Source: Reichenbachiella sp. (GTDB lineage Bacteria; Bacteroidota; Bacteroidia; Cytophagales; Cyclobacteriaceae). Taken from it: DNA of 64,000 nucleotides. How positions within the stretch are numbered: the stretch's first letter is position 1; the number at the start of each line of letters is the position of its first letter. A program made the translations under genes and the position numbers. Location of the stretch: the NCBI RefSeq assembly GCF_033344935.1, contig NZ_JAWPMM010000001.1:1-64000 (forward strand), in the 5' to 3' direction. Of this stretch, positions 8,541 through 33,835 are shown in pieces. The notes under the pieces were generated by a model that saw nothing but the letters and a program-made list of their open reading frames with translations, was not told the DNA's origin and ran no database searches.

Positions 8541-9485
8541 ATGAATAAGAAAAGAGTATTAATTACAGGCGGAGCGGGTTTTCTAGGTTCACACTTGTGC
8601 GATAGATTTTTAAAAGAAGGTTGTCATGTCATTGCTATGGATAATCTTATAACAGGGTCATTAGACAATATTGAGCATCTATTTCATCGAGAAGATTTTG
8701 AATTCTATAATCACGATGTGTCAAAGTTTGTACACGTCTCTGGGGATCTTGATTATATCATGCACTTCGCCTCACCTGCCAGTCCGATAGACTACCTAAA
8801 AATGCCCATACAAACTTTGAAGGTTGGATCATTAGGTACTCACAATCTACTAGGCCTTGCCAAGGCGAAAAAAGCAAGAATGCTAATAGCCTCTACTTCG
8901 GAAGTTTATGGAGACCCCCTAGTTCACCCGCAAACGGAAGACTACTGGGGCAACGTAAATCCCGTTGGACCAAGAGGAGTGTACGATGAAGCTAAGCGTT
9001 TCCAAGAGGCCATGACTATGGCCTATCATACCTTTCATGGAGTAGAAACAAGAATAGTACGAATATTTAATACATATGGTCCAAGAATGCGTCTCGATGA
9101 TGGTCGCGTATTGCCAGCATTTATTGGTCAGGCATTGAGAGGTGAGGATTTGACTGCCTTTGGTGATGGGTCACAGACCCGTTCGTTTTGCTATGTGGAT
9201 GATTTGGTTGAAGGCATTTATAGATTGTTACTGAGCGATTGTGCAGACCCTGTCAACATTGGCAATCCAAGTGAAATTACTATCAACCAATTCGCAGAAG
9301 AAATTTTGAAGCTTACCGGAAGCCAATCAAAAATAGCTTACAAACCACTACCAATGGATGATCCCAAACAGCGACAACCAAATATTTCAAAGGCAAAAGA
9401 AGTTTTGGATTGGGAACCTAAATTCTCCAGAAGCGAAGGGTTAAAACCAACATTGGAGTATTTTATGAAAAAAGTTAAAGGGTAA
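8541..9485 (+). CDS. UDP-glucuronate decarboxylase (UDP-xylose synthase)
   Basis: An extended short-chain dehydrogenase of 314 residues. It has the NAD-binding [10 protein letters not shown] at the N terminus, the substrate-specific segment [20 protein letters not shown] followed by [14 protein letters not shown] (catalytic Tyr-x3-Lys), and [10 protein letters not shown]. The HPQ.E.YWG.VNP and YDEAKR combination distinguishes UXS from RmlB and GalE. It converts UDP-glucuronic acid to UDP-xylose in the cytoplasm. The gene follows rmlC by six bases. It requires UDP-glucuronate, so a UDP-glucose 6-dehydrogenase must exist; the neighbouring dehydrogenase looks more like a UDP-HexNAc type. Confidence 0.9.
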
Positions 9486-18491: not shown

Positions 18492-18492
18492 C

Positions 18493-19563
18493 ATGGCAGA
18501 AGAAAGAGAACATAAAGTCATACATGACGACGAGATCGACTTGATAGAACTGGCCAAAACCATTTGGGCAGGACGTCGCTTTATTGCAAAAGTGACTGGG
18601 ATATTTGCTATTATTGGGTTGGTTATTGCCTTCACCAGCCCGGTCGAGTATGAAGCTTCTTGTAAGCTGCTGCCTGAAAGTCAAGAAGCACAAATGCCCA
18701 ACATGGGAGGGTTAGCTGGTCTCGCTGGTCTCGCTGGAGTAGATTTGAGTAGCATGTCAGGTTCATCAGGTGTGCTTACTCCTCAGCTTTACCCTGAGAT
18801 TGTCAATAGCTTGCCTTTCATTTTAGAAGTCTTGAATGACACGGTATATTTTGAACAAATGGATTTACATACCACGTCCTTTCATTATTTCAAGGAAATA
18901 AAAAAACCAAGCCTACTTGGATACGCCATGAAATACACGATTGGTTTGCCAGGATTACTCAAGAAAGCCGTTCAGGGGGAAGAAAGTGCAAAAGAAAACG
19001 CCTCTCCTTTTTATCGTTTATCAAAAGAAGATTGGAAGATCATAGAAAAATTCAAAGAAAGAATTTCGATTGAGATAGATGCTGAGACTGGAATTATTGA
19101 GGTCTTGATTGAATTGCCAGATCCTTATGCCGCTGCTCAAATTGCCAAAAAAATTGAACTAATGGTTACTGAGGCTGTTATAGAATATAAGACTGACAAA
19201 TCAATAAAAAACCTAGAATTTATCCTGGAAACCTACAATGAAGCTAAAGCTGAATTCGAAAAGGTACAATTGAGACTCGCACGAGCCACAGATCGCAATA
19301 AAAATGTATCCTCCGCTACAGGTCAAATAGAACTTAAGAAAATTGAGCATGAATATGACATTGCGTTTGATGTATATAAAGGGCTTTCTTCTCAGGTCGA
19401 ACAAGCGAAAATTAAATTGAAAGAAGAGACACCAGTATTTACAATATTAGAACCTGTTAGAATTCCTGAGGATAAGAGTAAACCGAAAAGGGCAATAATT
19501 TTATGCGTAATGATTTTTTTGGGTTTATCAACTAGTGCTTTGATTAAGGCTATAGGTAAATAA
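18493..19563 (+). CDS. Wzz-type chain-length determinant (polysaccharide co-polymerase), no kinase domain
   Basis: The start is placed at ATG 18493 (MAEEREHKVIHDDEIDLIEL), directly after wza; a longer frame from 18457 would run into wza. The Wzz N-terminal motif DLIELAKTIWAGRRFIAKVT leads into the first membrane helix (IFAIIGLVIAF). A long periplasmic region with coiled-coil character (residues about 230-320) follows, then PVRIPEDKSKPKRA and a final membrane helix. No cytoplasmic tyrosine-kinase domain is present, so this is a PCP-1-like protein. It regulates polymer length together with the Wzy-like protein at 25317. A Gly/Leu/Ala run (GGLAGLAGLAGVD) near residue 75 is a local codon-level repeat. 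Confidence 0.88.
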   Translation: MAEEREHKVIHDDEIDLIELAKTIWAGRRFIAKVTGIFAIIGLVIAFTSPVEYEASCKLLPESQEAQMPNMGGLAGLAGLAGVDLSSMSGSSGVLTPQLYPEIVNSLPFILEVLNDTVYFEQMDLHTTSFHYFKEIKKPSLLGYAMKYTIGLPGLLKKAVQGEESAKENASPFYRLSKEDWKIIEKFKERISIEIDAETGIIEVLIELPDPYAAAQIAKKIELMVTEAVIEYKTDKSIKNLEFILETYNEAKAEFEKVQLRLARATDRNKNVSSATGQIELKKIEHEYDIAFDVYKGLSSQVEQAKIKLKEETPVFTILEPVRIPEDKSKPKRAIILCVMIFLGLSTSALIKAIGK

Positions 19564-19574
19564 ATATCAGTTAT

Positions 19575-20303
19575 ATGATTCATCTACGGAAATCCATTAA
19601 TAGACTCGCCTCGTCTAATTCCAGCAGGCATTATCTTAAGAAATTTGCCTTTGAAGCTGGGAAAAGAGTTAATAAAAACTCGATGATACTAGATGCTGGG
19701 GCCGGGGATTGTATTTATAGAAAGTACTTCAAGCATGCCAAATATGAATCGGCAGATTTTTGTCAGGTGGATAAATTTTACGCTCCAGTAACATACGTAT
19801 GTGATTTGGATAATATTCCAGTTGAAAACGAAAGGTATGATTTTGTATTTTTGTCGCAAGTATTGGAACATTTACCGAATCCCCAATCTGTATTAACAGA
19901 ATTGAATAGAGTATTAAAACCTAATGGTGAATTATGGCTGTCCGCTCCATTTTTTTATGAAGAGCACGAAAAACCTTATGATTTTTATCGATATACACAA
20001 TTTGGATTTACTCATTTGCTTAACCAAGCTGGCTATAAAGTAAAGTCGATTTCTTGGCTGGAGGGTTATTATGGCACTATGGGTTATCAATTTAAAACAA
20101 TGTATAGAAGTATTCCAATAAATCCTAAATTTTACGGCAAGGGGCTTGGTTCTTATCTAAGTGCTTTGTTTTCTGCACTATTAAAACCATTGTTTTTTTT
20201 GTTAATGGTACACTTTAATCGTCTTGATAAAAGATTTATTTTCACTGATAATGGTTATTGCAAAAATTATAAAGTTGTAGCAATCAAGGAGAGTGAGTTA
20301 TAG
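19575..20303 (+). CDS. Class I SAM-dependent methyltransferase
   Basis: A 242-residue methyltransferase of the Methyltransf_11 type. The SAM-binding motif is ILDAGAGDCIYRKYF; motif II/III are FVFLSQVLEHLPNPQ and LNRVLKPNGELWLSAPFFYEEHE. The latter EH-EKPYDFYRYTQFG segment is typical of methyltransferases in surface-polysaccharide clusters, which modify sugars or lipid-linked intermediates. A hydrophobic stretch near residues 190-215 (LSALFSALLKPLFFLL) may touch the membrane. It is the first gene of the AT-rich assembly section and overlaps the next gene (flippase) by 11 bases. Confidence 0.85.
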   Translation: MIHLRKSINRLASSNSSRHYLKKFAFEAGKRVNKNSMILDAGAGDCIYRKYFKHAKYESADFCQVDKFYAPVTYVCDLDNIPVENERYDFVFLSQVLEHLPNPQSVLTELNRVLKPNGELWLSAPFFYEEHEKPYDFYRYTQFGFTHLLNQAGYKVKSISWLEGYYGTMGYQFKTMYRSIPINPKFYGKGLGSYLSALFSALLKPLFFLLMVHFNRLDKRFIFTDNGYCKNYKVVAIKESEL

Positions 20304-21735
20304 TTCAAATCTAACAGGTAAAACAATTGGAAATATTAAAGTTTCCATGTTAAGTCAGTTTATTCGATTTGTTATTCAGATTTTTGGCAATTTGGTGTTT
20401 ACCTATTTTTTATTGCCTGAAGATTTTGGACATATTGCTATGGCTCAAACTATTATAGGCCTTTTAAATATTTTCAAGGACATGGGGCTCATGCAGCCAA
20501 TAATTCAATTTGACCGAATCAGTAAAACTCAGAAATCATCAATTTTTTGGCTCAATATTAGTGTGACAACAATTCTTTCAATTTTGCTGATTCTTATTGC
20601 GCCAATTATTGCCACTTTTTTTCAACAGGACGAGCTCTTCAAAATTATTTGCTTACTAATTATCCCTTTCTACCTGAATAGTCTAGGAATGGTGCATGAA
20701 GGCTTTTTGAGAAGATATTTAAGGATTGCATTAGTTGCCAAAATACAACTTTTTTCTATGATATTTAGCTATACTATAGCTCTTATTTCTTTATACTTTT
20801 TCAAGAATTATTATATTATAATTCTGCAACAAATTGTTTTTGCAGCAATAAATCTATTGTTTATTTTGATTTATTATCAATGGTTGCCAGCATTTGTCTT
20901 TGAATTAAAACGAATCTCTCCTTTTTATAAGTTTGGAATAGATGTATTAGGAAGCAATTTATTAAATTTTAGCTCGAGAAATATTGACAATGTCTTGATT
21001 GGTAAGGTATTTGGAATATCTATATTAGGACAATATAACAGAGCATATAGTTTGCTAACATTACCATTAAATCAAATAAATAATCCTATTGGGAATGCTC
21101 TTTTGCCTACATTGAGTCGGGTGAAAAATATTGGAGAATCTTACAGGAAGGTTTATTTTAGTACTGTAACAAGTATCGTTTTTGTTCTTTATCCAGCCTT
21201 TGTTCTTAGTTTCTATTTTGCTCAGAATTTATTTGATCTTTTCTTTGGAGACAAATGGAATTTGTCTGTAGTTTATTTTAAAATATTGATTATAAATTCT
21301 TTCATTCAAGTAATTACTAACACCTTTGGGTGGTTGTTCGTCTCTCAGGGTAGAAGTAAAGATATTTTTCATTGGACATTAATTGGAAGTTGTATCAATA
21401 TACTCGCATTTGTTTCGGGAATGATCTGGGGAGTTACTGGTATGATTTGGTTATATACAATTTTAGGGTATTCACTAAAAGCACCAATTATTACTTGGTT
21501 GTTGTGCAAGAAGGGACCAATACGGTTGAAGGATTTTAAACAACTTGTTTTGCTAGGAATGGCTTCTGTCATCATGACTTTTTCAGTAATATTTCTTCTT
21601 GAGAAATTAAATTTGAATTTTCATTTTCTTATGAAGGCGGGTGCTGTTTATGCTGTTGTTCTTATCATCACATTGCCATTGCTACCTAAATATATTACCA
21701 ATAAACTAAAAAATAAACTGAATCAATTCATATGA
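20293..21735 (+). CDS. Wzx-type lipopolysaccharide/polysaccharide flippase
   Basis: A polytopic membrane protein of 480 residues in the MOP superfamily (WzxC/MviN relatives) with about 12-14 predicted helices. Family segments include VSMLSQFIRFVIQIFGNLVF, YFLLPEDFGHIAMAQTIIG and NFSSRNIDNVLIGKVFG, the last typical of WzxC/TuaB-like flippases. It translocates undecaprenyl-PP-linked repeat units across the inner membrane. The GTG start at 20293 lies within the preceding gene; the internal ATG at 20347 (MLSQF) is an alternative. Its presence with a Wzy-like protein establishes a Wzx/Wzy-dependent pathway. Confidence 0.9.
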   Translation: MSYSSNLTGKTIGNIKVSMLSQFIRFVIQIFGNLVFTYFLLPEDFGHIAMAQTIIGLLNIFKDMGLMQPIIQFDRISKTQKSSIFWLNISVTTILSILLILIAPIIATFFQQDELFKIICLLIIPFYLNSLGMVHEGFLRRYLRIALVAKIQLFSMIFSYTIALISLYFFKNYYIIILQQIVFAAINLLFILIYYQWLPAFVFELKRISPFYKFGIDVLGSNLLNFSSRNIDNVLIGKVFGISILGQYNRAYSLLTLPLNQINNPIGNALLPTLSRVKNIGESYRKVYFSTVTSIVFVLYPAFVLSFYFAQNLFDLFFGDKWNLSVVYFKILIINSFIQVITNTFGWLFVSQGRSKDIFHWTLIGSCINILAFVSGMIWGVTGMIWLYTILGYSLKAPIITWLLCKKGPIRLKDFKQLVLLGMASVIMTFSVIFLLEKLNLNFHFLMKAGAVYAVVLIITLPLLPKYITNKLKNKLNQFI

Positions 21736-22733
21736 TTGCAACGATTAATTTAATGGACACCTCCGTTACAACGGATAATATAGGCGATAAAATTATCTGT
21801 AATTCTATAGTAAATGAATTGAACCATATTTTGAATAAGGTATATGTAACCAACACTTCAACACATGATGATATTGGAGCAACTGGTAGGAAAAGCATTA
21901 ATAAAGCAGATATCTCTGTTCTTCTAGGCACAAACGCCTTGTCGAGTTACTTTAAAGTAGGAAGACCCGACATATGGAAGATTAATTTTAAAGACTTGGT
22001 TTCACTAAGCAATAAAGTTCTCTTATGTGGAGCAGGTTGGAGAAATTATCAGGGTGAAACATCTATTTTGCAGAAATTGACATATCAGAGAATATTAACA
22101 AAGCAATGGATACATTCTGTTAGAGATAGCCATACAAAAAACATGCTAGCCAAATGTGGAATATCAAATGTAGTCAATACATCTTGCCCAACATTATGGA
22201 GCTTAGATCAAGAGTTTTGTAAAACTATTCCGACACAAAAATCAGGTAGAGTCGTGTTCACATTAACTAGGCACAAGCCTGATCCAAATGATTTGGTGAT
22301 GATAATGGTATTAATTGAAAATTACGATCGGGTTCTTTTTTGGCCACAACAAATTGAAGATTATGATTATCTATCTGGTCTAGTAACTAAAGAGTTATTT
22401 AATGAAATTGAATTAGTTCCTCCCTCACTATCGGCATACGATTGTTTATTGGATGAAAAAGATATTGATTTTGTTGGGACAAGACTTCATGGCGGTATTC
22501 GCGCCATACAAAAAGGAAATCGAGCTTTAGTTGTCTCAATAGACAATCGTGCTACTGAAATAAGTAGAGACACTAAGTTGCCAACGATCAAGCGTAGTGT
22601 AATACCAGATCAATTAGAGACAATGATTCGAGGTTCGTTTGAAACGAATATTGTATTACCGCATGACGAAATTAATAGGTGGAAGGATCAGTTTTTAAAA
22701 ATAATCCCAAAAAAATTATACGATCATAAATAA
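21732..22733 (+). CDS. Polysaccharide pyruvyl transferase family protein
   Basis: A 333-residue cytoplasmic protein with the CsaB/WcaK pattern: an N-terminal TDNIGDKIICNSIVNELN segment, LGTNALSSYFK, HSVRDSHTKNML with conserved Arg, and near the C terminus VGTRLHGGIRAIQKGNRALV, the strongest family signature. Such enzymes transfer pyruvate from PEP to form ketal pyruvyl groups on sugars, which adds negative charge to the polymer; some members may have other roles. It overlaps wzx by four bases and its stop overlaps the next glycosyltransferase start by one base. Confidence 0.85.
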   Translation: MIATINLMDTSVTTDNIGDKIICNSIVNELNHILNKVYVTNTSTHDDIGATGRKSINKADISVLLGTNALSSYFKVGRPDIWKINFKDLVSLSNKVLLCGAGWRNYQGETSILQKLTYQRILTKQWIHSVRDSHTKNMLAKCGISNVVNTSCPTLWSLDQEFCKTIPTQKSGRVVFTLTRHKPDPNDLVMIMVLIENYDRVLFWPQQIEDYDYLSGLVTKELFNEIELVPPSLSAYDCLLDEKDIDFVGTRLHGGIRAIQKGNRALVVSIDNRATEISRDTKLPTIKRSVIPDQLETMIRGSFETNIVLPHDEINRWKDQFLKIIPKKLYDHK

Positions 22734-23905
22734 TGAGGACAAATATATTAGTATATCCAGGGTTAAAATATTTACCTCGTTCATGCACCTTTATTTATAG
22801 GCAATTATTAGGTGTTTCAGAGCAGTTTATACCCCATGTTATTTATTCACATGAAGAAAATATGGATATATTTCCTCTGAAAACAGTTGTTAAAAGAAAA
22901 AGACCGCTTATTGAAAAGGTCAAGAATAGATTATTCTCCGAATCTGGGTGGAACATCAGCTATTTATCTTGCTACGAAGAAAAATTCATTGAAGATTATA
23001 TAAAAAAAAATAACATTAAACTCATTCATGCCCATTTCGGGCATCACGGTATAAAAATGTTGCCTATCGCTAGAAAGCTAAATATACCTTTGATAGTTAC
23101 ACTTCATGGAATGGATATCACAGTATATACCAAGAACAAAGCTTATGTGAAGGCCCTAGGTAAATTGGCAGAATACGCACTTATTATATGTGTTTCAAAG
23201 AATATCCAACGAAGACTGTCATTGTTGAGTATAAAACCAAATAAGGATATCCTTCACTATATAGGGATACCTATTGAAAAATTTTCATATGTAAAACGAA
23301 CTCCTTTAAAGATCAAAATGGAAAGAGGAGATAAAATTGTTTTTTGTCAAGTTTCCAGACTTGAAGAGAAAAAGGGTATAAAATATAGTTTATTGGCATT
23401 TGCGGAAGTATTAAAATTCTACCCGAATTCTGAATATCGAATTGCAGGAGATGGAACCCTATTAAGCGAATTAAGAAAGTTTACAAAAACACTCCAAATA
23501 TCTCATAAAGTTAAGTTTCTCGGGAGCGTGACTTCTGATGAGGTTGTGGAACTATTCGCAAAATCAGATGTCTTTCTACATCATAGTATTACTGCGAAAA
23601 ATGGTGATCAAGAGGGATTGCCAACTGTCATAGGAGAAGCAATGTCAACAGGTTTAATTGTTCTATCCACCAATCATTCAGGAATCCCTGATTTAATTAG
23701 AGATGGTCAAGATGGTTTTTTGGTGGACGAAAAAGATGTGGACACCTATGTCGAAAGGCTAAAAAGTGCATTGAATTTATCAGATTTTAGTATGAATGTT
23801 GTTGCCAAGGAACGTGTTGATGATTTTTTTAATTTAAAAAAACAAAATCAACTGTTATCGGAAATATATTTGGCGGAAATTTCAGAATATCGTGGCATGA
23901 AATAA
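22733..23905 (+). CDS. Glycosyltransferase family 4 (GT-B), WcaL-like
   Basis: A retaining GT-B glycosyltransferase of 390 residues. The N-terminal half contains IHAHFGHHGIKMLPIARK and VTLHGMDITVY, as in WcaL/AmsK-like enzymes that read a GT4 N-domain. The C-terminal GT4 domain has CQVSRLEEKKGIKYSLLAF, the E-x7-E region HHSITAKNGDQEGLPTVIGEAMSTG, and VLSTNHSGIPDLI. Donor and acceptor cannot be deduced. It is tightly linked to the pyruvyltransferase upstream. A 248-base weakly coding gap follows. Confidence 0.9.
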   Translation: MRTNILVYPGLKYLPRSCTFIYRQLLGVSEQFIPHVIYSHEENMDIFPLKTVVKRKRPLIEKVKNRLFSESGWNISYLSCYEEKFIEDYIKKNNIKLIHAHFGHHGIKMLPIARKLNIPLIVTLHGMDITVYTKNKAYVKALGKLAEYALIICVSKNIQRRLSLLSIKPNKDILHYIGIPIEKFSYVKRTPLKIKMERGDKIVFCQVSRLEEKKGIKYSLLAFAEVLKFYPNSEYRIAGDGTLLSELRKFTKTLQISHKVKFLGSVTSDEVVELFAKSDVFLHHSITAKNGDQEGLPTVIGEAMSTGLIVLSTNHSGIPDLIRDGQDGFLVDEKDVDTYVERLKSALNLSDFSMNVVAKERVDDFFNLKKQNQLLSEIYLAEISEYRGMK

Positions 23906-23951: not shown

Positions 23952-24161
23952 ATGATGAATTATATTTGTAGCCTATCCATTCTGTTAACAGAATTGGCTT
24001 TAGCACTGCAAAAAACAAGAATGATGGTGATGCATATGATTGTTCTTGGGTCTTGTATATACGTCTTCGCACAAATAGTACTTAATTACCTGTTTAATCA
24101 AGACTTTACAAATGATATACTACAATTGCTTAAAATAAAAAAAGTTGACAACGATGGGTAA
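23952..24161 (+). CDS. Possible small membrane protein or gene remnant
   Basis: A hydrophobic ORF of about 69 codons from ATG 23952, with two membrane-like stretches (ICSLSILLTELALAL and MIVLGSCIYVFAQIVLNYLF). It fills part of an unusually wide gap in an otherwise tightly packed operon and overlaps the next glycosyltransferase by a few bases. I recognise no family. It may be a short membrane peptide, or what is left of a deleted gene. An antisense ORF also covers part of the gap, so coding status is uncertain. Confidence 0.3.
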   Translation: MMNYICSLSILLTELALALQKTRMMVMHMIVLGSCIYVFAQIVLNYLFNQDFTNDILQLLKIKKVDNDG

Positions 24162-25329
24162 TCAAATTGTTATCTGTCTATCCAATGAAAGCTACGATGC
24201 AAAAATTTGGACCAATAAGCAACATTTAATGTCGCGTTTGTCGAAACATCCAAACTATGACATCATGTATATTGATCAAGGCATGTCATCTAGATATATA
24301 AGGCAAGCAATCACAGAAAAAAACTGGAAATATTTTTTGCGCCCTCTAAAAAAAATGGGTGAAGGGCTTACAATTTTTTCGCCGTATTTCCTGCCGTTAA
24401 TCAAAGGAGGAAGGGTTAAACGCTGGAGCTGGCTGCTGCTCTTTTGGTTTATTAAATTTTACATAAAAAAGATAGAATATACCAAGATCATTTTTTGGAC
24501 CTATCAGCCTCAGGCTTGGTACTTAATTAAACACGTCAAAAAAGTACCTGGAACGACAATACTTTATGATTGTGTGGATGAATTTGCCACACAGCCATTT
24601 TATAAAAATAATGAAAACCGTACTAAGGAACTTCTTCAAATTGAAGCACTTCTAACAAAAAAGTCTGACATTGTTACAACGACTTCAAAAGCCTTATGCC
24701 ATGATAAAATTGAAATTAATCCAAATACTCACTATATACACAACGTCGGGGATTTTAACCACTTCAAACAACCCAACGGGGAACTCTCTTCTGAGGAGCA
24801 TTTATGGCTAGCAGATGATAGGGTCAAAGTTTTATATGCAGGGGTCATTGATGACTACAAAACTGACCTTGACCTAATTTATTCGATTGCTAAAGAACTA
24901 AAGGATAGTCATTTGTTCGTCTTCATTGGCCCAATTCGCATTTCAGATGAAAAGATATTCAAAAAAATTGATGGACAAAATAACACACTCTTTATAGGCA
25001 CTAAACCATATTTGGAAATTCCTAACTTTCTTCATAATGCCGATTTACTATGGTTGCCTTATTCGATATCAACACATACGAACAGAGTATTCCCTTTGAA
25101 GTTGTTTGAGTATTTATCCACTGGCAAATTTATATTGTCAAGAAACCTTACTAGCATCGAAGAGTATGGTAAGTATATCAGTACTTTTGAGACTATTGAG
25201 CAAGCAGTTCTCCATTTGAAACAGTGGCCCATGTCAGATTCTATTATAAAAAAAGAGCAGCGGATACAATTGGCTAGCAAAAATACTTGGGAATCGCGTT
25301 TGGAAAACATCTTAAAATGTATACCCTAA
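24154..25329 (+). CDS. Glycosyltransferase (TuaH-like GT-B)
   Basis: A 391-residue GT-B protein starting at ATG 24154 (MGNQIVICLSNESYDAKIWT); a TTG nine bases earlier is less likely. Segments ILYDCVDEFATQPFY, LLTKKSDIVTTTSKAL, VLYAGVIDDYKTDLDLI and LLWLPYSISTHTNRVFPLK followed by LFEYLSTGKFILSRN resemble TuaH and similar glycosyltransferases in teichuronic-acid and exopolysaccharide clusters. The donor sugar is unknown. Its 3' end overlaps the polymerase gene by 13 bases, indicating coupled translation. Confidence 0.87.
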   Translation: MGNQIVICLSNESYDAKIWTNKQHLMSRLSKHPNYDIMYIDQGMSSRYIRQAITEKNWKYFLRPLKKMGEGLTIFSPYFLPLIKGGRVKRWSWLLLFWFIKFYIKKIEYTKIIFWTYQPQAWYLIKHVKKVPGTTILYDCVDEFATQPFYKNNENRTKELLQIEALLTKKSDIVTTTSKALCHDKIEINPNTHYIHNVGDFNHFKQPNGELSSEEHLWLADDRVKVLYAGVIDDYKTDLDLIYSIAKELKDSHLFVFIGPIRISDEKIFKKIDGQNNTLFIGTKPYLEIPNFLHNADLLWLPYSISTHTNRVFPLKLFEYLSTGKFILSRNLTSIEEYGKYISTFETIEQAVLHLKQWPMSDSIIKKEQRIQLASKNTWESRLENILKCIP

Positions 25330-26654
25330 TAGAAAAACCCCGTAAACTTTTTTTTGATCTTTTAATGGCGGCTTTTCCTGCTAGTGGAGTTATCATTCCA
25401 ATAGGCCGGGATTGGACCCCCGTTCAATTAATAACGATCCTTTCCACGCTCATTCTAATATTAGAATTAATTTTTAATAAAAGAGCAAGTATCAAAATCA
25501 ACACGAATTTTCTGACGCTTTTTGTACTCTTTCTGGCAACTTGTGTAGTTTCAATTCTTTTCAAGCCTGATACCCCATCAATTACATTTAACTCACATTC
25601 CAATTATGCGGCATCGTACCATACTCTGGATTTGCTTTATCTCGCCTGGATGATTCTAAATCTAGTAATGGTCATTTTGATATACAATGTGATTGATTCT
25701 TATGAAGTATTTTATAGAGCTTTAAAGATTATGCTTCTCTCATCTATATTCTATGCATTTTATGCTTACTATCAATACATAATAGTTTTGATTTTCGGAG
25801 AGGGAGCAAGATCTCTTGTTTATGTTTTCAAAGAAGAGTACCTATGGGGGCCGGAAGCAATTAGATCTCCGTCCCTTTCAAGAGAACCACTTTTTTATTC
25901 ATTCTACCTTTCTGGAATTATTTTTCTTTGTGTTTCAATACTATTTAAAAAGGGTCACTCGTTGTTCACAAAAATTGGCCTCCCTAAGACTACCATTGTT
26001 TGGATTCTGATAATCAATAGCATTGCATTTTTTTCTGGCAAGCCAACAGCGGGCTTTGTTAGTTTAATTGTTGCCGTAAGTTTTTTCTTGATAAGAAATA
26101 TCAAGTTTTCATCAAGAATCAAGGTTAACTTTTTAAAGAAGGGTCTATGGTATACTCTCATTGTATTACCCATTTTTGTAGGCTTCATATATCTCAACCA
26201 AAACAGAATTGCACGGAGACTGACCAGTGCCGCTGATATGTCATCCGGATATGTTAGAGTGGTGTCAGTACTCGAGGGAATAGATAGTATTAAAAAATAC
26301 CCCATTACTGGTTATGGAATTTCTAATAGCCAATTTTTTATTTCTACAGTTGTAATTCACAATATGTATATAAACTTGGTTGCAGAGACTGGAATTATTG
26401 GATTTTTGGCCTTTATGTCCATTTTACTTTTTTTATGGTTCAAGATTTCCAAACAGAGTAAAATGCCTGGGAATTCAGGCGCACTTGGTCAGTGGTTTCT
26501 TGTCTTTTTAGTGGCTGTCCTTATTCAGTGGATGTCGATGCATGCTTTTTCAATCCCAATATTTTGGTTTTATTGTGGCTTAATTCTCACCTCGATAAAA
26601 CTTGGACAAAATAGACCTCAAAATCAAATTTCCACAAATGAAATCATTGAGTAA
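25317..26654 (+). CDS. O-antigen ligase/polymerase family membrane protein (Wzy-like)
   Basis: About 445 residues with 10 or more hydrophobic helices; start taken at ATG 25317 (MYTLIEKPRK), inside the upstream gene's last codons. The Wzy_C-type region is visible as a periplasmic loop with GYVRVVSVLEGIDSIKKYP and ITGYGISNSQFFIS...HNMYINLVAETGIIGFLAF, the hallmark of the O-antigen ligase superfamily. In a cluster that also has wzx and wzz it is the probable repeat-unit polymerase. It overlaps the acyltransferase gene by 17 bases. Confidence 0.87.
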   Translation: MYTLIEKPRKLFFDLLMAAFPASGVIIPIGRDWTPVQLITILSTLILILELIFNKRASIKINTNFLTLFVLFLATCVVSILFKPDTPSITFNSHSNYAASYHTLDLLYLAWMILNLVMVILIYNVIDSYEVFYRALKIMLLSSIFYAFYAYYQYIIVLIFGEGARSLVYVFKEEYLWGPEAIRSPSLSREPLFYSFYLSGIIFLCVSILFKKGHSLFTKIGLPKTTIVWILIINSIAFFSGKPTAGFVSLIVAVSFFLIRNIKFSSRIKVNFLKKGLWYTLIVLPIFVGFIYLNQNRIARRLTSAADMSSGYVRVVSVLEGIDSIKKYPITGYGISNSQFFISTVVIHNMYINLVAETGIIGFLAFMSILLFLWFKISKQSKMPGNSGALGQWFLVFLVAVLIQWMSMHAFSIPIFWFYCGLILTSIKLGQNRPQNQISTNEIIE

Positions 26655-27849
26655 ATCTCTGGCAAGAACAACCAGCGGAAGATATATCAATCAAATAGAT
26701 GGATTGCGTTTTATCGCAATTTTTCCGGTACTGCTACACCACCTGGCGGAAAGAATTTATAGAGCAATGTCTGGTCAACAGACATTAAATGATAATGATG
26801 TTTTCTTGTACCAGCTACTTCCCAGTGGCAGATTGGGAGTTGAAATATTTTTTGTAATAAGTGGCTTCGTCATATCCATGCCGCTACTTAAAAATTGGAT
26901 AAATACTAAAAATGTAAAATTCAGCTATCGAAGGTATCTGTTAAAGAGAATTACTCGATTAGAACCTCCATACTTATTGATAATGGCCAGTAGTTTTATT
27001 CTATTGTTTTTATTGAATCAGTTAAATATAGACTTTTCTGGTGGTACCCGATCATTCTCTTCCAATTCTCTGACATTGACAAATAGCTTTATTGCCAGTC
27101 TCTTTTATGGACATGGCATTATTTATAATAGCTTTCCAAAACTAAACCCACCAGCCTGGTCTTTGGAAATAGAATTTCAATTCTATCTTATTGCACCAAT
27201 TTTAATACTTCTAAGTATTTCAATCGCGAATAAATTACCACGCAAAGATTATATTGTCATAATTTTATTGTTGATGATTTTTACAATTAAACTAATTGGG
27301 TCAAGTTTCATTCCTCTTTCGTTACAAAAATATTATATCACCAATTATTTCGAATTTTTTATTCTAGGCTTCATCTTTTCATTCTTCTACTTTACAAGTT
27401 TTTTTCAAAATATTTTATTGAAAAGAAGCTCGAGCTTAGTTTTTGTTTTTGGAATAATACTTGCATATGTTGGAGATCATTACAGGTTGTCCAAAGAAGG
27501 GTGGAATTCAATATATGATTTCTTCAGAATTTTAGGAATCTTTCTTATTTTCTTTGGTTCTTTTAGTGGTGGTCTTGGCCAAAAATTTACCGAGAAAAAA
27601 TGGATTAGTATTTTAGGGGGTATGTGCTATTCTATATACTTAATTCATCTTTTTATATTTCAAGTCGGTGTTTCAATAATGTTTAAATATCTTTGCTTTG
27701 GATCATTTGCTCTCAATTTACTTACTTATTCAATTATTCTAATACCCTTAACATTTATTGCATCGGCCGCTTTCTTTATTTTAGTTGAGAAGCCCTGTAT
27801 GAATCCAGATTGGTATAAGCTATTAATCAAAAAATTCAAACACAATTAA
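26638..27849 (+). CDS. Acyltransferase family 3 membrane protein
   Basis: A membrane acyltransferase of about 403 residues (start ATG 26638, within the end of the polymerase gene). The family-3 pattern is clear: QIDGLRFIAIFPVLLHHL with the catalytic His, GRLGVEIFFVISGFVISMPLL, RRYLLKRITRLEPPYLL, and PPAWSLEIEFQFYLIAPI. About ten helices follow. Such proteins O-acylate (often O-acetylate) extracytoplasmic polysaccharides. This adds an acyl decoration to the predicted polymer. Confidence 0.92.
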   Translation: MKSLSKSLARTTSGRYINQIDGLRFIAIFPVLLHHLAERIYRAMSGQQTLNDNDVFLYQLLPSGRLGVEIFFVISGFVISMPLLKNWINTKNVKFSYRRYLLKRITRLEPPYLLIMASSFILLFLLNQLNIDFSGGTRSFSSNSLTLTNSFIASLFYGHGIIYNSFPKLNPPAWSLEIEFQFYLIAPILILLSISIANKLPRKDYIVIILLLMIFTIKLIGSSFIPLSLQKYYITNYFEFFILGFIFSFFYFTSFFQNILLKRSSSLVFVFGIILAYVGDHYRLSKEGWNSIYDFFRILGIFLIFFGSFSGGLGQKFTEKKWISILGGMCYSIYLIHLFIFQVGVSIMFKYLCFGSFALNLLTYSIILIPLTFIASAAFFILVEKPCMNPDWYKLLIKKFKHN

Positions 27850-27872: not shown

Positions 27873-28517
27873 ATGAGTTTTATTAAAACCAAAGCAAAAG
27901 AATTTTTAGCTCCTATATTATACAAACGATTAAACTCTGGGTTACAACCAGAAAGGCTGTACTACTATTTAGATACTCTCTGGAATAAAAAAGATGTTGA
28001 AGGAGGAGTTTTGGAAATCGGTTGCCATCTCGCAGGAACGTCTATTATTGCTAAGAACATGCTTTCAAAACTTGGTATTCAAAAGAGTTATGACTGTTTG
28101 GATACGTTCGGAGGGTTTGTTAAAGAACAATTTGAAAATGATGCAGACATGCATAAAGTACCTGCTAAAAATGGGGCCTTTTTTGCTTCTAATTCAAAAA
28201 AATTGGTTCAAAAAATACTGAAAATTCACAATCGTGAGGATATTACTCTTATTCAAGGTGATATTGTTTCCTTTAATGCCAATCAATTAAATACACCAAT
28301 TTCCATCTGCCTTTTGGATGTAGATCTGGAAATTCCAATATATGAGGGCCTCAAAAAGATTTACCCATTGCTTTCAGAGAATGGGGTAATTTTAGTTGAC
28401 GACTGTCCAGAAGGAACAAGCTGGGGAGGAGCACGAAAAGGGTATGAAAGCTTCATGAAAGAAATAGGCCTCGCACCTAAATATAAATTTGGTTTCGGGG
28501 TTCTTAATAAGAATTAG
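27873..28517 (+). CDS. TylF/MycF-type O-methyltransferase-like protein
   Basis: A 214-residue class I methyltransferase-fold protein. VEGGVLEIGCHLAGTSIIAK fits the SAM site, DCLDTFGGF follows, and ICLLDVDLEIPIYEGLKKIYPLL plus GVILVDDCPEG carry the acidic residues that bind a divalent metal in TylF/MycF macrolide-sugar O-methyltransferases. It probably methylates a sugar hydroxyl of the repeat unit. Gaps to both neighbours are short (23 and 45 bases), so it belongs to the same operon. Specificity is not readable from sequence. Confidence 0.78.
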   Translation: MSFIKTKAKEFLAPILYKRLNSGLQPERLYYYLDTLWNKKDVEGGVLEIGCHLAGTSIIAKNMLSKLGIQKSYDCLDTFGGFVKEQFENDADMHKVPAKNGAFFASNSKKLVQKILKIHNREDITLIQGDIVSFNANQLNTPISICLLDVDLEIPIYEGLKKIYPLLSENGVILVDDCPEGTSWGGARKGYESFMKEIGLAPKYKFGFGVLNKN

Positions 28518-28562: not shown

Positions 28563-29513
28563 ATGAAAGCAGCTACAAAATCCTACAAATCATTAAACAC
28601 ATTCAAGCAGTATTATACACTTGAATCTACTGACTACTGGCATCTTCAATATCCACTAAACTCATCTTGGGAAGAATACTATTGGGACATGTCAGAAAAA
28701 GCTTTCCAATGTACATTGCATAGGGATGAACAAGGTGTAACTACATATACAGGAGAAGATGGAGCAATTTATTATTCATCCATTGAATTGGCTCAATATG
28801 CTATGGCTTCATATCAAGCTTACCTAATTACAGAAAAGCATACATGGCTTGACGATTCAGTCCTTCACATTGAAAAGTTTGTGAATATGGCTCAGTCTTA
28901 TAAGGAAAGTGAACTTACTGTACTCAACACCTACCCAATAGCATTATACAAAATAGATCACCCTTGGCCAACTTCTCTTGGTTTTGGAGTTGCCATTTCG
29001 CTTTTAGTTAGATTATATGAACTTTTGAAAAAAGAAGAATATTTAATCTTTGCAAAAAAATTAGCACAGAATTTTTTTATCAAGGTAGACAATGGAGGTG
29101 TATTGAGAAAAATTAATAATTTGATGATCTTTGAAGAATATCCTACCAAAGAATTATCGGGTGTTCTCAATGGGCACATCTTTGGATTGTGGGGATTAAA
29201 AGATCTGGGAAAATACGATCAACTTTACGAGACCCATTTCAACAATTTGTCTATTAATCTAGCAGAGAATCTTAAAGTTTGGAATGGTAATTTTTGGAGT
29301 TTATACGACGCTAGTCATCTAGTTGGCAAAAGGAAAAATTATGCCAGTGCTCACTATCACCTTTTACATGTTAAAATGATAATGGTGATGTATAAACTTA
29401 CAGGAAATGCTGTTTTTGCTAACTTTGCGGAAACTCTTATTCGACAAAAGTTTGGAGTCTGGTCAAGAGTCAAAGCTCTCTTCGTCAAAGTCTTTTTTCG
29501 ATTATTTAACTAA
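28563..29513 (+). CDS. D-glucuronyl C5-epimerase-like protein
   Basis: A 316-residue protein without signal peptide or membrane helix. It carries the C-terminal signature of heparan/heparosan D-glucuronyl C5-epimerase (GLCE): EEYPT at 191-195, VLNGHIFGLWGLKDL at 201-215, WSLYDASHL at 246-253 and SAHYHLLHVKMI at 262-273. Tyr193, Tyr248 and Tyr265 align with the three tyrosines I recall as catalytic in the animal enzyme, with similar spacing (55 and 17 here against about 60 and 18). The upstream part is an (alpha/alpha) helical region (NTYPIALYKIDHPWPTSLG). GLCE enzymes convert D-glucuronate to L-iduronate within a polymer. Here it would act in the cytoplasm on lipid-linked units or nascent chain, which is an inference. 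Confidence 0.75.
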   Translation: MKAATKSYKSLNTFKQYYTLESTDYWHLQYPLNSSWEEYYWDMSEKAFQCTLHRDEQGVTTYTGEDGAIYYSSIELAQYAMASYQAYLITEKHTWLDDSVLHIEKFVNMAQSYKESELTVLNTYPIALYKIDHPWPTSLGFGVAISLLVRLYELLKKEEYLIFAKKLAQNFFIKVDNGGVLRKINNLMIFEEYPTKELSGVLNGHIFGLWGLKDLGKYDQLYETHFNNLSINLAENLKVWNGNFWSLYDASHLVGKRKNYASAHYHLLHVKMIMVMYKLTGNAVFANFAETLIRQKFGVWSRVKALFVKVFFRLFN

Positions 29514-29518: not shown

Positions 29519-30646
29519 TTGAACATTCTAATTCTATCCAAGGACTATCCACCGACTATTGGAGGCGTTGAAACGTACTCTTATCACGTTGCAGAGGGCT
29601 TATCAAAAAATCATGATGTTACCGTCGTATCTTTTCAAGGAAAGCATTATATCAATTCTTGGAAGGACACCGCCAATGTTATAAGAATTAATTCGCTATT
29701 GAATAATGAGTTATTCAAAGCTGTTTCGCTTCTCTTAAATCTTCTAATAATCCTCAGTTCAAAAAAATACGATCTGATTTATGCTACGACTTGGAAAGTC
29801 TCTGTGCCTTTTGCTTTATTAAATATTTTATTCAAAATAAAATTTCTAATTGTATGCCATGGAGCTGAAATAACGAGACATAAACATAAGCGTCCAATCA
29901 TGAAAATGATGAAGTGGGTATTAAATAAGGCCGATTCTATTTTCACGGTTAGTACATTTACTAGAGACAAAGTGATTGAATATTCAAAAGTTAGTCCAGA
30001 TAAAATACATGTGATTCCAAATGGTGTAGATTTTTCTAAACTGGTTCCACTGGATAAAAACGAGTCCAGAAATAAATTGGGCTTTGCTAAAGATCAATTT
30101 GTATTCTTAACAGTTTCAAGAGTAGACTCAAGAAAAGGGCATGATATTGTTATAAAAGCTATTAAAAGTTTAATAGTAAAGAAGTTTAATGTCCTGTACG
30201 TAATAGTAGGAGATGGACCTTCTATAAATTCACTGAAGGAGCTGACCGAAAATTGGGGTTTGCAGGAACAAGTTAAATTTGCGGGGTTCGTTTCCAATGA
30301 AGAACTCGATGAGTATTATTCTGCCAGCGATGTTTTTGTAATGCTAAATACCATGAAAGATGATCGAGACTTTGAAGGCTTTGGTTTGGTCTTTGCAGAA
30401 GCTGGGTATTATGGTTTACCTCTAATAGGAGGCAATAATGCCGGACCGAAAGAAGTCATCATAGATAGCATCTCAGGTTACCTAGTAAATGATGTCATAG
30501 AAGAATTAGCTGAAAAATTGTCACTACTTTACAGCGATCGCAATCATTCAAAAAAACTTGGAGAGGAAGCCAAAAAAATTAGCCAAAAAGAATTTTCATT
30601 AAAAAAACTTATAGAAAGAATTGAATTAAAGATTCAAACATTGTAG
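29519..30646 (+). CDS. Glycosyltransferase family 4 (GT-B)
   Basis: A 375-residue GT4 enzyme. The N-terminal donor-sugar loop reads LILSKDYPPTIGGVETYSYHVAEGL, typical of PimB/WaaG-type GT4 proteins; then VCHGAEITRHKHKRP, SIFTVSTFTRDKVIEYS, VIPNGVDFSKLVPL, LTVSRVDSRKGHDIVIKA and the E-x7-E region FEGFGLVFAEAGYYGLP. The start appears to be TTG at 29519, five bases after the previous stop. No ATG fits before the conserved N-terminal strand. The next gene starts on the base after the stop. Confidence 0.93.
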   Translation: MNILILSKDYPPTIGGVETYSYHVAEGLSKNHDVTVVSFQGKHYINSWKDTANVIRINSLLNNELFKAVSLLLNLLIILSSKKYDLIYATTWKVSVPFALLNILFKIKFLIVCHGAEITRHKHKRPIMKMMKWVLNKADSIFTVSTFTRDKVIEYSKVSPDKIHVIPNGVDFSKLVPLDKNESRNKLGFAKDQFVFLTVSRVDSRKGHDIVIKAIKSLIVKKFNVLYVIVGDGPSINSLKELTENWGLQEQVKFAGFVSNEELDEYYSASDVFVMLNTMKDDRDFEGFGLVFAEAGYYGLPLIGGNNAGPKEVIIDSISGYLVNDVIEELAEKLSLLYSDRNHSKKLGEEAKKISQKEFSLKKLIERIELKIQTL

Positions 30647-31426
30647 ATGAAAAACAATAAAGATTTAATTACAATAATATCTCCATTATACAATGCTGAG
30701 CATTTCATTTTGGAAACAATTAATTCAGTATTAAATCAAACATACAATAATTGGGAATGGATATTAATCGATGATGCTTCGAGTGATAATTCTGTAGATC
30801 TATTATTACCATATAGTGAAAATGATAGCAGAATCAAGTTATTTAGATTAAAGGAAAATGTAGGAGCTGGAGAAGCTAGAAATATTGGATTAAGTCATTC
30901 TCATGGCAATTATATTACTTTTCTTGATGCGGATGATTATTGGGACAAAGACAAATTGCAAACCCAACTTCATTTCCATCTAGAGAATAATTGTTGCTTT
31001 TCATATTCTTGGTATTACAATGTTGATTCAAGAAGCAATCTTTTATCAAGATCCAGAACACCAAACAATGTCTCCTTTCGTTTGCTAAAATTTAACAACT
31101 ACATTCTTACTTCTAGTATAATGTGTAATAAAGAAACTATAGATGGACTTACATTTCCAAAAATTAGAAAAAGGCAAGATTGGGTCTTTTTTTTGAAACT
31201 CTTAAAAAGATCACATATTGCGTACGCTATTGAAAAAGAACTGGTTTATTACAGAAGTAATGCAAATTCTTTAAGCGCTAACAAACTATCACTAGTTAAG
31301 CCAAATTATATTATGTTTCGGGATTACATCTATTCTGGAAGATGCATTCCAGCTATACTACATTTTTTCATTTTTCTTCCCCTCTATGTTCACAACAAAT
31401 TAATTAATAAGAAAAAAATGAAATGA
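30647..31426 (+). CDS. Glycosyltransferase family 2 (GT-A)
   Basis: An inverting GT2 enzyme of 259 residues: TIISPLYNAEHFILETINSV, WEWILIDDASSDNSVDLL, GAGEARNIGLSHSHGNYITFLDADD with the DxD metal site, and RQDWVFFLKLLKR downstream. A hydrophobic C-terminal stretch (AILHFFIFLPLYVHNKLI) may associate with the membrane. It directly abuts the GT4 gene (no gap) and overlaps the following epimerase by ATGA. The sugar transferred is unknown. Confidence 0.93.
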   Translation: MKNNKDLITIISPLYNAEHFILETINSVLNQTYNNWEWILIDDASSDNSVDLLLPYSENDSRIKLFRLKENVGAGEARNIGLSHSHGNYITFLDADDYWDKDKLQTQLHFHLENNCCFSYSWYYNVDSRSNLLSRSRTPNNVSFRLLKFNNYILTSSIMCNKETIDGLTFPKIRKRQDWVFFLKLLKRSHIAYAIEKELVYYRSNANSLSANKLSLVKPNYIMFRDYIYSGRCIPAILHFFIFLPLYVHNKLINKKKMK

Positions 31427-32394
31427 AAATTTTAATCACAGGAGGGTCAGGATTCATTGGAACCCACTTAATCAAATCTTTATTTTCTTTAAAAGGAGAG
31501 ATCTCAATTCTAAATGTTGATCTTAACAATAGTCCTATTCTACACCCGCATTTAAAAACGGTCATTACTGACATAAGATCAAATAATTTACACAACATCC
31601 TTGCCGAAAGTTCTGATTTTGATCAATGTATACACTTAGCAGCTATATGCAAAGAGCCTGGCTATGAATGGAAAGAATATTTCGAAACAAATCATGTCGG
31701 AACCAAAAACATAATATCACTTTGTGACAAACTGAATATTCCTAAAATCATCTTCACAAGCACAATGATGGTGTATAAAGCAGGGGAAGAACAAAAAACA
31801 GAATTATCTCAAACTGACCCTGACACAGCTTATGGTATTTCAAAACTATTAGCTGAAAAAGAACTTGAAAAATGGAAATACAGAGGAACAGATAGGGAAT
31901 TGAAGATTATCCGTCCTGCCGTTGTTTTTGGGGAAAATGAGAATGCAAACTTTACCAGATTATATAAAAGTCTAAAAAAGGGCTTTTTCCCATATGTAGG
32001 AAAAAAAACAACTATTAAAAGCAATATTTATGTTCATGAATTAAACTCTTTCATCATTTTCCTAATGACAAAGCCAACAAAATCCAACATTTATAATTTT
32101 GGCTTTCCTGAATTATCGTCGATAAACCATATAACTAGCACCTTTAATGAGGTCTTCGGCATTAAGGCCTTTCGCCCAACAATTCCTTTAAGGATAATGA
32201 TCCTACTGGCTCACTTCTTTCAACTTTTGAATCGCTTTGGGTTTAAAAATAGTATACACCCAAGAAGGATTGAAAAACTATATTATTCCACTGATATATA
32301 TCCGAAAGCAGCACTTGATGAAGGTTATCAATTCAAATTCAACTTATCCAGTGCTTTAGAAGATTGGAAAAAATCAGATGATATTAATATGTAG
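31423..32394 (+). CDS. NAD-dependent epimerase/dehydratase (extended SDR)
   Basis: A 323-residue SDR with the Rossmann motif ITGGSGFIGTHLIKSL, an HLAAICKEPGYEW loop, FTSTMMVYKAG, and the catalytic YGISK (Tyr-x3-Lys). The C-terminal half (RPAVVFGENENANFTRLY, YVHELNSFIIFL) is typical of UDP-hexose 4-epimerase-like or reductase members in O-antigen clusters. Specificity is uncertain: it could be a UDP-GlcNAc/GalNAc 4-epimerase or a 4-keto reductase. It ends the tightly coupled operon; wcaJ follows after 61 bases. Confidence 0.85.
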   Translation: MKILITGGSGFIGTHLIKSLFSLKGEISILNVDLNNSPILHPHLKTVITDIRSNNLHNILAESSDFDQCIHLAAICKEPGYEWKEYFETNHVGTKNIISLCDKLNIPKIIFTSTMMVYKAGEEQKTELSQTDPDTAYGISKLLAEKELEKWKYRGTDRELKIIRPAVVFGENENANFTRLYKSLKKGFFPYVGKKTTIKSNIYVHELNSFIIFLMTKPTKSNIYNFGFPELSSINHITSTFNEVFGIKAFRPTIPLRIMILLAHFFQLLNRFGFKNSIHPRRIEKLYYSTDIYPKAALDEGYQFKFNLSSALEDWKKSDDINM

Positions 32395-32455: not shown

Positions 32456-33835
32456 ATGCAGAAAAGGAGATTGTCCAAATATTTTCCTACCTTATTTCTG
32501 TTCATAGACCTTTTGTTCTTGAACATCGGATTCTTTGTTGCCAATTACGTACGGTTCAATACCTTTTGGTTTCAAGGCGATCGCTATCCATTTCTTTTTG
32601 TTTTTCTGAATATCACTTGGGTTGTTATCTTCTTTGTCACCAAGCTGGACAGGGTTGATCGTGAACGAAGTGTAGTAGATTATATATCTCAAATTCTTCT
32701 TGGTCTTACGATTAATCTAGCGGTGGTGTTTACCATGTGGGCCTCTACCCGCGCCTATTTCTACTCTAGAGAGCACCTCTTTTATACCTATTTGATTTTT
32801 TCTGTGCTCATCGTCGGCTGGAGAGTTGGATTCATTAATATACTTCGTTTCTATCGCACCAAAGGGTATAACATAAGGAACATCATTATTGTAGGTTATG
32901 GACCTATTGGTAGAAACCTCAAAAGACATTTAGAGAACAATCCAGAAATTGGTTACAAGTTCAAAGGTTTTTTTGACCACAAAACAGAGCAACCAGAAGT
33001 AACCGGACCTGTTGAATCTGTGGCTTCATACGCCAAAGAAAACGGCATTGATGTTATATTTTGTTGTTTACCTAAACTATTTGAACAAGACGTAAAGCCT
33101 TTGATAGATTTTGCAGAAAACAATTTGATCACAATCAAATTACTCTCAGATTTCAGTAAAGTGGGGAATAAGAAATTGGAAGTACAACAGTATGGAAACA
33201 TTCCTGTGCTTAATGTCAGTTCTATTCCTCTTGATCGGATGATCAATCGATTTGCTAAAAGAACCTTTGATGTGCTGTTCTCATCTTTTGTCATGGTTTT
33301 TATCCTTTCCTGGTTGATACCACTGATTGGTTTACTGATTAAATTAGAATCCCCTGGCCCAATTTTCTTTATTCAAAATAGACATGGTAGAGGAAATAGA
33401 TATTTCCCTTGTTGGAAATTCCGAACCATGGTAGTTAATAAGGATGCTGATTCAAAACAGGCTACTAAAAATGACCCTCGAGTCACTCGAACTGGCGCGA
33501 TTCTTCGTAGAACGAGCTTGGACGAATTACCCCAATTCATCAATGTGTTTTTGGGAAACATGTCAGTCGTAGGCCCAAGACCTCACCCTATTAAGCTTAA
33601 CGAAGAATATTCCCCAAAAATTGATCGATTTATCCAAAGACATGCGGTAAAGCCTGGAGTAACAGGGTTAGCACAAGCCAAAGGTTATCGTGGGGAAACT
33701 TCAAGGTTCAGCGAAATGTATGGTCGTGTTAAGCTGGATCGCTTTTATGTCAAAAACTGGAGCTTGCTATTTGATGTCAAAATCATCCTGATGACGATCT
33801 ACTCTATCGTATTCAAAACAGAGAAAGCCTATTAA
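32456..33835 (+). CDS. Undecaprenyl-phosphate phosphoglycosyltransferase (WcaJ-type)
   Basis: The initiating enzyme of polymer synthesis; transfers a sugar phosphate (usually glucose-1-P) from UDP-sugar to undecaprenyl phosphate. The 459 residues comprise four N-terminal membrane helices, a CoA-binding-like Rossmann domain (NIIIVGYGPIGRNLKRHL at about 141), a fifth hydrophobic hairpin, and the catalytic Bac_transf domain: CWKFRTMVVNKD near 320, RRTSLDELPQFINVFLGNMS (the DE pair), VGPRPHP and VKPGVTGLAQAKGYRGE. It terminates the polysaccharide locus and is followed by a 187-base gap carrying intergenic repeats. Confidence 0.94.
   Translation: MQKRRLSKYFPTLFLFIDLLFLNIGFFVANYVRFNTFWFQGDRYPFLFVFLNITWVVIFFVTKLDRVDRERSVVDYISQILLGLTINLAVVFTMWASTRAYFYSREHLFYTYLIFSVLIVGWRVGFINILRFYRTKGYNIRNIIIVGYGPIGRNLKRHLENNPEIGYKFKGFFDHKTEQPEVTGPVESVASYAKENGIDVIFCCLPKLFEQDVKPLIDFAENNLITIKLLSDFSKVGNKKLEVQQYGNIPVLNVSSIPLDRMINRFAKRTFDVLFSSFVMVFILSWLIPLIGLLIKLESPGPIFFIQNRHGRGNRYFPCWKFRTMVVNKDADSKQATKNDPRVTRTGAILRRTSLDELPQFINVFLGNMSVVGPRPHPIKLNEEYSPKIDRFIQRHAVKPGVTGLAQAKGYRGETSRFSEMYGRVKLDRFYVKNWSLLFDVKIILMTIYSIVFKTEKAY

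Follow-up and report, generated by a model that had tools for sequence, protein, structure and literature searches.

The window analysed here, a stretch of 64,000 nucleotides of Reichenbachiella sp. DNA, encodes a 316-residue protein that, judged from its sequence and predicted fold, belongs to the D-glucuronyl C5-epimerase family as a divergent bacterial representative of minimal build with a predicted epimerase activity, and its gene lies within an exopolysaccharide cluster of the Wzx/Wzy type. Our reading as a whole, which we hold with moderate confidence, is that of a minimal alpha/alpha-barrel C5-epimerase, cytoplasmic and membrane-near, that acts on a hexuronate in an undecaprenyl-linked repeat ahead of Wzx. 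For example, consider an exopolysaccharide repeat unit under assembly on undecaprenyl. The protein would remain cytoplasmic, its basic C-terminal tail keeping it close to the inner membrane, and would invert C5 of a hexuronic acid in the lipid-linked unit, most likely converting D-GlcA to L-IdoA, before the unit is flipped by Wzx. Within the barrel, E192, Y193, Y248 and Y265, together with N203, would take the proton off C5 and put it back, as is thought for their counterparts in human GLCE.

The first-pass annotation of this DNA had placed the gene correctly: the frame is intact, opens with ATG on the plus strand and has exactly the bounds given in Table 1. The GLCE-like signature that it had recognised is likewise present, with EEYP at residues 191-194, VLNG at 201-204, GLKDL at 211-215, YDASH at 248-252 and YHLLH at 265-269, and the three tyrosines fall at 193, 248 and 265, as it had claimed. 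The search it had proposed against the GLCE C-terminal family, PF06662, returned 115.5 bits, the cut-off being 23.3; neither NCBIfam nor PHROGs held a match for the protein. In the PDB, phmmer with the single sequence found zebrafish GLCE (4pw2, 1.1e-11) and human GLCE (6hzz, 6.5e-11), and a family profile of 17 sequences reached 8.5e-52 for 6hzz and 2.4e-49 for 4pw2, the first protein other than GLCE being the GH76 alpha-1,6-mannanase 4v1r at 2.7e-6. These E-values, together with the fold comparison below, rule out a chance resemblance to GLCE. A second PF06662 match in the same genome is a 695-residue protein of a different kind, whose N-terminus looks thioredoxin-like by eye.

The family profile aligns to positions 105-139 of the 6hzz chain and then to 309-523, skipping 140-308: the bacterial proteins match the animal enzyme in its helical part and lack the intervening stretch. 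The animal enzyme is described as having a beta-hairpin, a beta-sandwich and a catalytic alpha domain (PMC13308652). Of the initial label "heparan-type", then, the assignment to the GLCE C-terminal family stands, but the label itself is too narrow, because both beta domains are missing, because short members lie near glycan genes in 13 of the 15 neighbourhoods read, and because the name "D-glucuronyl C5-epimerase family protein" is already in use for such a protein in two public plasmid records. Judged by its domains, the protein would fall outside heparan-type GLCE in the strict animal sense.

A predicted model of the protein, built from eight sequences and replacing a poorer first model (pLDDT 48.5), has a mean pLDDT of 59.1 and a pTM of 0.64. 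Its best ten-residue blocks score 77-93, and values below 50 cover nearly all of residues 1-71 as well as 93-97, 113-135 and 243-262, the last being the loop with Y248. Foldseek gave 486 matches, eight of them at E <= 0.001 and every one of these GLCE (2.9e-6). In VIA-align 2 the human and zebrafish GLCE chains came first over 264-269 residues, with Z running from 20.7 for 6i01_A (rmsd 5.4 A, 266 residues) down to 20.1 for 4pw2. The next chain, from a putative glycosyl hydrolase, scored 13.5; lower still were GH76 6u4z (13.0), the D-mannose isomerase 5x32 (12.7) and 3gt5 of the GlcNAc 2-epimerase family (12.4). The alpha/alpha-barrel, whose comparison with human GLCE had been suggested as a check, is thus borne out by a model of modest confidence (pLDDT 59). 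The same comparison bears on whether some other alpha/alpha-barrel sugar enzyme, such as a GH76 glycosidase or an AGE epimerase, has been misread as GLCE from mere resemblance of fold, a suspicion fed by the weak matches that PF06662 makes to other proteins, including the 695-residue one. The Pfam score, the profile E-value, the Z of 20 against 13.5 and the five catalytic residues discussed next refute this explanation, and we give it practically no weight.

The key catalytic residues of human GlcE are given as E499, Y500, N510, Y560 and Y578 (PMC13308652), a numbering offset by 90 from that of the 6hzz chain. In the alignment all five are present in the 316-residue protein, as E192, Y193, N203, Y248 and Y265; in chain 6i01_A, Phe replaces Y578. 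The full set is kept in 17 of the 22 bacterial and phage rows, our protein counted, and is broken in L014 (Y to A), in L010 and L015 (N to D and Y to F) and in a phage protein described below (Y to M). The row for L068 is too short for judging the five positions, and L050, cut by a contig end, is left out of the 23-row alignment. L010 and L015 form a sub-branch near glycosyltransferase genes, and their substitutions at two catalytic positions can be read as a sign of altered or lost activity. That relatives have lost catalytic residues, and that C5-epimerases and lyases share their first step, speaks for another possibility, in which our protein is a uronate-specific lyase, or an inactive epimerase, that has retained the C5-proton site. 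We judge this improbable for a protein that keeps all five residues in an intact frame, has no signal-like N-terminus and is encoded in a biosynthetic cluster.

One feature escaped the first-pass annotation. A motif WxSAxxQG, which is our own observation on the 23 aligned rows rather than a published definition, reads WPTSLGFG in the 316-residue protein, with T137 and F141, whereas S and Q occupy these places in each of the 22 other rows, the human one among them. L054 was dropped from the relatives as an unrelated frame (its match covers residues 3-41 only). In a phylogeny that excludes L067 and L068, the protein sits on a branch of 2.02 changes per column; the tree does not resolve the deep forks and does not place the protein. 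With F141 and T137 deviating on so long a branch, the protein may have shifted in substrate or in activity.

Table 1. Positions in the window of the C5-epimerase-family gene, its sites and the genes around it
Feature	Position	Strand	Basis
UDP-glucuronate decarboxylase (UXS) homologue, consumes UDP-GlcA	8541..9485	+	PDB 4gll 8.2e-109
Nucleotide-sugar dehydrogenase, nearest model TviB	9491..10741	+	529 bits, cut-off 592
Polysaccharide export (Wza-like) protein	15960..18491	+	TIGR03027 1.5e-36, TIGR03028 5.8e-36, both below cut-offs
Probable polysaccharide co-polymerase (Wzz/Wzc-type)	18457..19563	+	position and appearance; NCBIfam none at 1e-30
Methyltransferase	19575..20303	+	PF08241 8.9e-13
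Wzx flippase	20293..21735	+	PF13440 2.7e-67
Polysaccharide pyruvyl transferase	21732..22733	+	PF04230 4.4e-12
GT4 glycosyltransferase	22733..23905	+	PF00534 8e-36
Glycosyltransferase, nearest NCBIfam model TuaH	24145..25329	+	below model cut-off
Wzy-type polymerase/ligase, borderline	25287..26654	+	PF04932 31.6 bits, cut-off 31.7
Acyltransferase 3	26602..27849	+	PF01757 3e-29
TylF-type methyltransferase	27873..28517	+	PF05711 1.7e-6
C5-epim_C (GLCE-like) protein, 316 aa, cytosolic type	28563..29513	+	ATG start; PF06662 2.6e-33
PF06662-matched stretch	28944..29432	+	profile positions 18-184 of 188
Codons 137-141 (T S L G F)	28971..28985	+	23-row alignment
Codons of E192 and Y193 (human E499, Y500)	29136..29141	+	alignment; roles as described in PMC13308652
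Codon of N203 (human N510)	29169..29171	+	alignment; role as described in PMC13308652
Codon of Y248 (human Y560)	29304..29306	+	alignment; role as described in PMC13308652
Codon of Y265 (human Y578)	29355..29357	+	alignment; role as described in PMC13308652
Cationic tail formed by the last 24 residues, net charge +6	29439..29510	+	proposed peripheral membrane contact
GT4 glycosyltransferase	29519..30646	+	PF00534 8.2e-41
GT2 glycosyltransferase, nearest NCBIfam model TuaG	30647..31426	+	below model cut-off
NAD-dependent sugar epimerase/dehydratase-like protein	31423..32394	+	NCBIfam
WcaJ-type undecaprenyl-phosphate glucose phosphotransferase (initiating enzyme)	32456..33835	+	TIGR03023 442.6 bits, cut-off 410.75

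The genomic setting is also as first described: the gene follows a methyltransferase gene after 45 bases and is itself followed, 5 bases on, by a GT4 gene; the cluster is of the Wzx/Wzy type, with a borderline Wzy_C match. It runs along one strand and includes, besides Wzx and the Wzy_C protein, a Wza-like exporter and a WcaJ-type initiating transferase, along with several glycosyltransferases, a pyruvyl transferase and an acyltransferase (Table 1). Its G+C content is 0.29-0.36 between 19 and 33 kb, compared with 0.37-0.42 in the flanks, which would fit exchangeable polysaccharide loci, where low G+C is frequent. Downstream, a 119-residue ORF on the minus strand (35072-35431) has what we take to be a resemblance to RelE/ParE-type toxins. 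Directly before the polysaccharide export genes, at 11368-15925, lie CysC, CysD, CysN and CysQ, genes of PAPS synthesis and recycling that may feed either sulfation or cysteine synthesis; the latter role is suggested because a second PAPS_reduct protein, probably CysH, is encoded elsewhere in the genome. Sulfotransfer_1 or Sulfotransfer_3 matches occur at three places elsewhere in the genome and at none within the 64-kb window. The idea of a heparan-sulfate-like locus, which the Cys genes had suggested, was dropped in view of the second PAPS_reduct protein and the absence of these sulfotransferase families from the window.

What the substrate might be is best approached through the sugar-nucleotide genes. 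For four cluster proteins, the closest NCBIfam models include TuaB, TuaC, TuaG and TuaH, named for teichuronic acid genes, all with scores far below the cut-offs; none of the cluster genes was identified as a glucuronosyltransferase, the glycosyltransferases resembling TuaC, TuaG and TuaH below cut-off. Elsewhere in the genome a Ugd-type dehydrogenase gene stands beside a galE-like gene (types read from the sequences), and together with the UXS in the window it suggests that UDP-GlcA can be supplied. The dehydrogenase adjoining the UXS, at 9491-10741, is closer to the TviB type, a UDP-GlcNAc dehydrogenase, than to UDP-glucose dehydrogenase, and its nearest solved structure is 4r16, a hypothetical UDP-ManNAcA dehydrogenase (4.6e-55). 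From these genes we consider a uronic acid the likely substrate and GlcA the best guess for it. The glucuronate substrate and glycosaminoglycan-like product of the first-pass annotation stay hypothetical: the window has no Sulfotransfer_1 or Sulfotransfer_3 match, its dehydrogenase is TviB-like, and Phe takes the place of a Gln that every other aligned row keeps. The same dehydrogenase invites a different assignment, in which the same C5-epimerase chemistry would act on an N-acetylhexosaminuronic acid (GlcNAcA or GalNAcA) to give a HexNAcA of, say, the L-altro, L-ido or L-gulo configuration. Both its resemblance to TviB, a UDP-GlcNAc C6 dehydrogenase, and its nearest structure point that way, and the change of Q to F in WxSAxxQG could fit an altered sugar. 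Yet its 529 bits fall short of the TviB cut-off of 592, the UXS beside it uses UDP-GlcA, a Ugd-type gene is available elsewhere in the genome, and we know of no tested C5-epim_C family member that acts on HexNAcA; on balance we think this assignment unlikely, although it is the alternative to which we give most weight. The 252 ORFs of the 15 relatives' neighbourhoods include no relative of either the window dehydrogenase or the genome's Ugd, and a plasmid cluster of Priestia has a C5-epimerase gene and a nucleotide-sugar dehydrogenase gene within 8 kb of each other.

As to where epimerisation of the presumed GlcA would take place, the protein has no signal-like start, in keeping with the initial annotation: its N-terminus is hydrophilic, with a maximum 15-residue mean hydropathy of -0.73 in the first 45 residues. 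A strongly hydrophobic start is absent from 15 of 17 alignment rows (values up to 1.21, our protein included), the other two, L009 and L012, being lipoprotein-like with values of 2.25 and 2.74; this alignment excludes L013, a near copy of L012, and L050, cut by the contig end. The starts of the L064 and Priestia proteins are not lipoprotein-like. At the other end of the chain, the charge of the tail is at least +3 in 15 of 16 family members from the window and the relatives' loci and at least +5 in 12 of them, compared with 23.6% and 5.4%, respectively, of the 258 further proteins of 150 residues or more encoded at the same places; the 16 members are not independent, because they are related. 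Exceptions are the lipoprotein-like L062 protein (-3) and the Priestia plasmid protein (-1), and the member in genome G183 has a tail of +7 yet no glycan-gene match nearby. Amphipathicity of the tail does not rise above shuffles in single sequences (a fraction of 0.21 of the shuffles reach that of our protein), and charge alone stands out. From this charge we propose that the tail touches the inner membrane.

The competing location is beyond the membrane, where the protein would act on exported material, either in the periplasm or once the polymer is complete, in the manner of GLCE, which works in the Golgi, or of periplasmic AlgG. It gains some appeal from L009, L012 and L013, C5-epim_C relatives with lipoprotein-like starts and acidic tails (-3 each), and from published descriptions in which GlcE and DS-epimerase act at the polymer level (PMC13308652) and AlgG is periplasmic and AlgE extracellular (PMC4432689). 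Human GlcE is described as acting on substrates of at least six sugars (PMC13308652), a minimum that exceeds many repeat units and so counts against epimerisation of the repeat unit. Nonetheless, the 316-residue protein has neither a signal-like nor a lipoprotein-like start, the lipoprotein-like relatives differ from it in their acidic tails, and no glycan-gene match was found at L062, the one neighbourhood of theirs that was read. Taken together, these observations make action after export a very improbable explanation, and we continue with cytoplasmic action as the preferred one.

Comparison with known C5-epimerases helps to place the protein. With animal GLCE (EC 5.1.3.12; PDB 6hzz, 6i01, 4pw2, 4pxq) it shares the C-terminal alpha-barrel, the EEYP...VLNG...YD..H...YH..H signature and the five catalytic residues, and it differs in having no beta-hairpin domain, beta-sandwich domain or hydrophobic N-terminus, in an identity of about 24% over 199 aligned positions, and in F141, where the animal enzyme has Gln. 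The AlgG and AlgE mannuronan C5-epimerases also invert C5 of uronic acids in bacterial exopolysaccharide, and their fold is a beta-helix, unlike the GLCE barrel. An active bacterial GLCE is known in Bermanella RED65_08024 (PMC13308652, PMC4432689). In vitro, that enzyme turns GlcA residues of desulfated heparan sulfate into IdoA, its natural target being given as unknown (PMC4432689), and a GlcE-like mechanism has been proposed for it from sequence alignment (PMC13308652). By its published description (PMC13308652, PMC4432689, PMC12350261) it is, like our protein, a bacterial member of the GLCE kind, but the gene studied here sits in a defined Wzx/Wzy-type cluster. Cytoplasmic epimerisation before the flip is the bold part of our proposal, and it is open to direct test. 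A precedent in the pathway exists in Agl32 of Halobacterium salinarum, a C5-epimerase of archaeal N-glycosylation that acts on a lipid-linked oligosaccharide before membrane crossing (PMC13308652). Agl32, too, is predicted to consist of the helical domain alone and is encoded in a glycan-assembly cluster, but its model is described as having none of the GlcE catalytic residues at matching places (PMC13308652), whereas our protein keeps all five and is set apart from Agl32, as described, on that account. Because its residues match GLCE and its place matches Agl32, the protein is most likely GLCE-like in its working and Agl32-like in its position in the pathway.

Protein-level matches to the 316-residue protein at 1e-5 occur in 2 of 390 genomes of the same order and protein-level matches in 13 of 395 genomes of the phylum sample, its own genome included in both counts. 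PF06662 matches at 0.001 in 38 of 296 genomes, above the cut-off in 23 of these, of which 14 are strong (117 bits or more, own included) and the rest weak; among 14 named control genomes there are matches in two, one of them above the cut-off. The protein has no close relative: identities with the remaining bacterial and phage rows are 18-29%. Short C5-epim_C proteins of 309-320 residues from Ignavibacterium (L049, L051-L053), the Priestia plasmid NZ_CP151784 and genome G558 (L064) similarly lack a hydrophobic N-terminus and have glycosyltransferase genes nearby wherever the neighbourhood was read; they differ in being 22-28% identical to our protein and in retaining the Q of WxSAxxQG. Neighbourhoods were read at 15 loci (L049, L051, L053 and L055-L066, with L050, L052 and genomes G262 and G054 left out). 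Glycosyltransferase, flippase or WcaJ-like genes are close by in 13 of them, the other two, L060 and L062, giving no glycan-gene match nearby in phmmer searches with the window proteins and Pfam searches of chosen ORFs. AsnB-type amidotransferase genes accompany the epimerase gene in 7 of the 15 and sulfotransferase genes in at least three (L058, L061 and L064). At L064, which belongs to the same-family genome G558, Sulfotransfer_1 and AsnB-type amidotransferase genes lie near the C5-epimerase gene (13140-15872), a setting that would suit a sulfated uronate glycan better than the window's cluster does.

We tentatively extend the proposal to the group, with a confidence a little short of even: GLCE relatives that are short, have no signal sequence and are encoded in bacterial Wzx/Wzy clusters may epimerise undecaprenyl-linked uronate in the cytoplasm, held by their tails, and so provide a general route, preceding polymerisation, to L-iduronate or another L-hexuronate. 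A search of one open literature collection found no publication that links a glucuronyl C5-epimerase with undecaprenyl, and L-iduronate has been reported in a Pseudoalteromonas polysaccharide (PMC3210612). If the proposal is true, C5 inversion in bacteria need not await the finished polymer, and a source of bacterial iduronate becomes directly testable through a compact member in a defined Wzx/Wzy-type cluster. Such a compact member might also become a simple tool enzyme for heparin-like sugars.

The frame matched at G054:C12:250149-250937 is listed as containing a single internal TGA. Viral contigs scanned by protein gave no relative confirmed by tblastn, while a motif-pattern scan of viral contigs returned four loci, two of which are family members, and a second pattern returned one chance match. 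L067 and L068 are C5-epim_C proteins on IMG/VR contigs classed as viral, which may be phage or host DNA. Fifteen records of the phage collection match at 0.01, all of them Pseudomonas aeruginosa phages, and one was scanned. In this phage, MK511013.1, a 548-residue "hypothetical" protein encoded at 30830-32476 (L073:5815-7461) has a C5-epim_C domain (PF06662 4e-35); its gene has a tail protein gene on one side and, beyond one small gene, an anti-repressor gene on the other, and its product could alter or bind host glycans.
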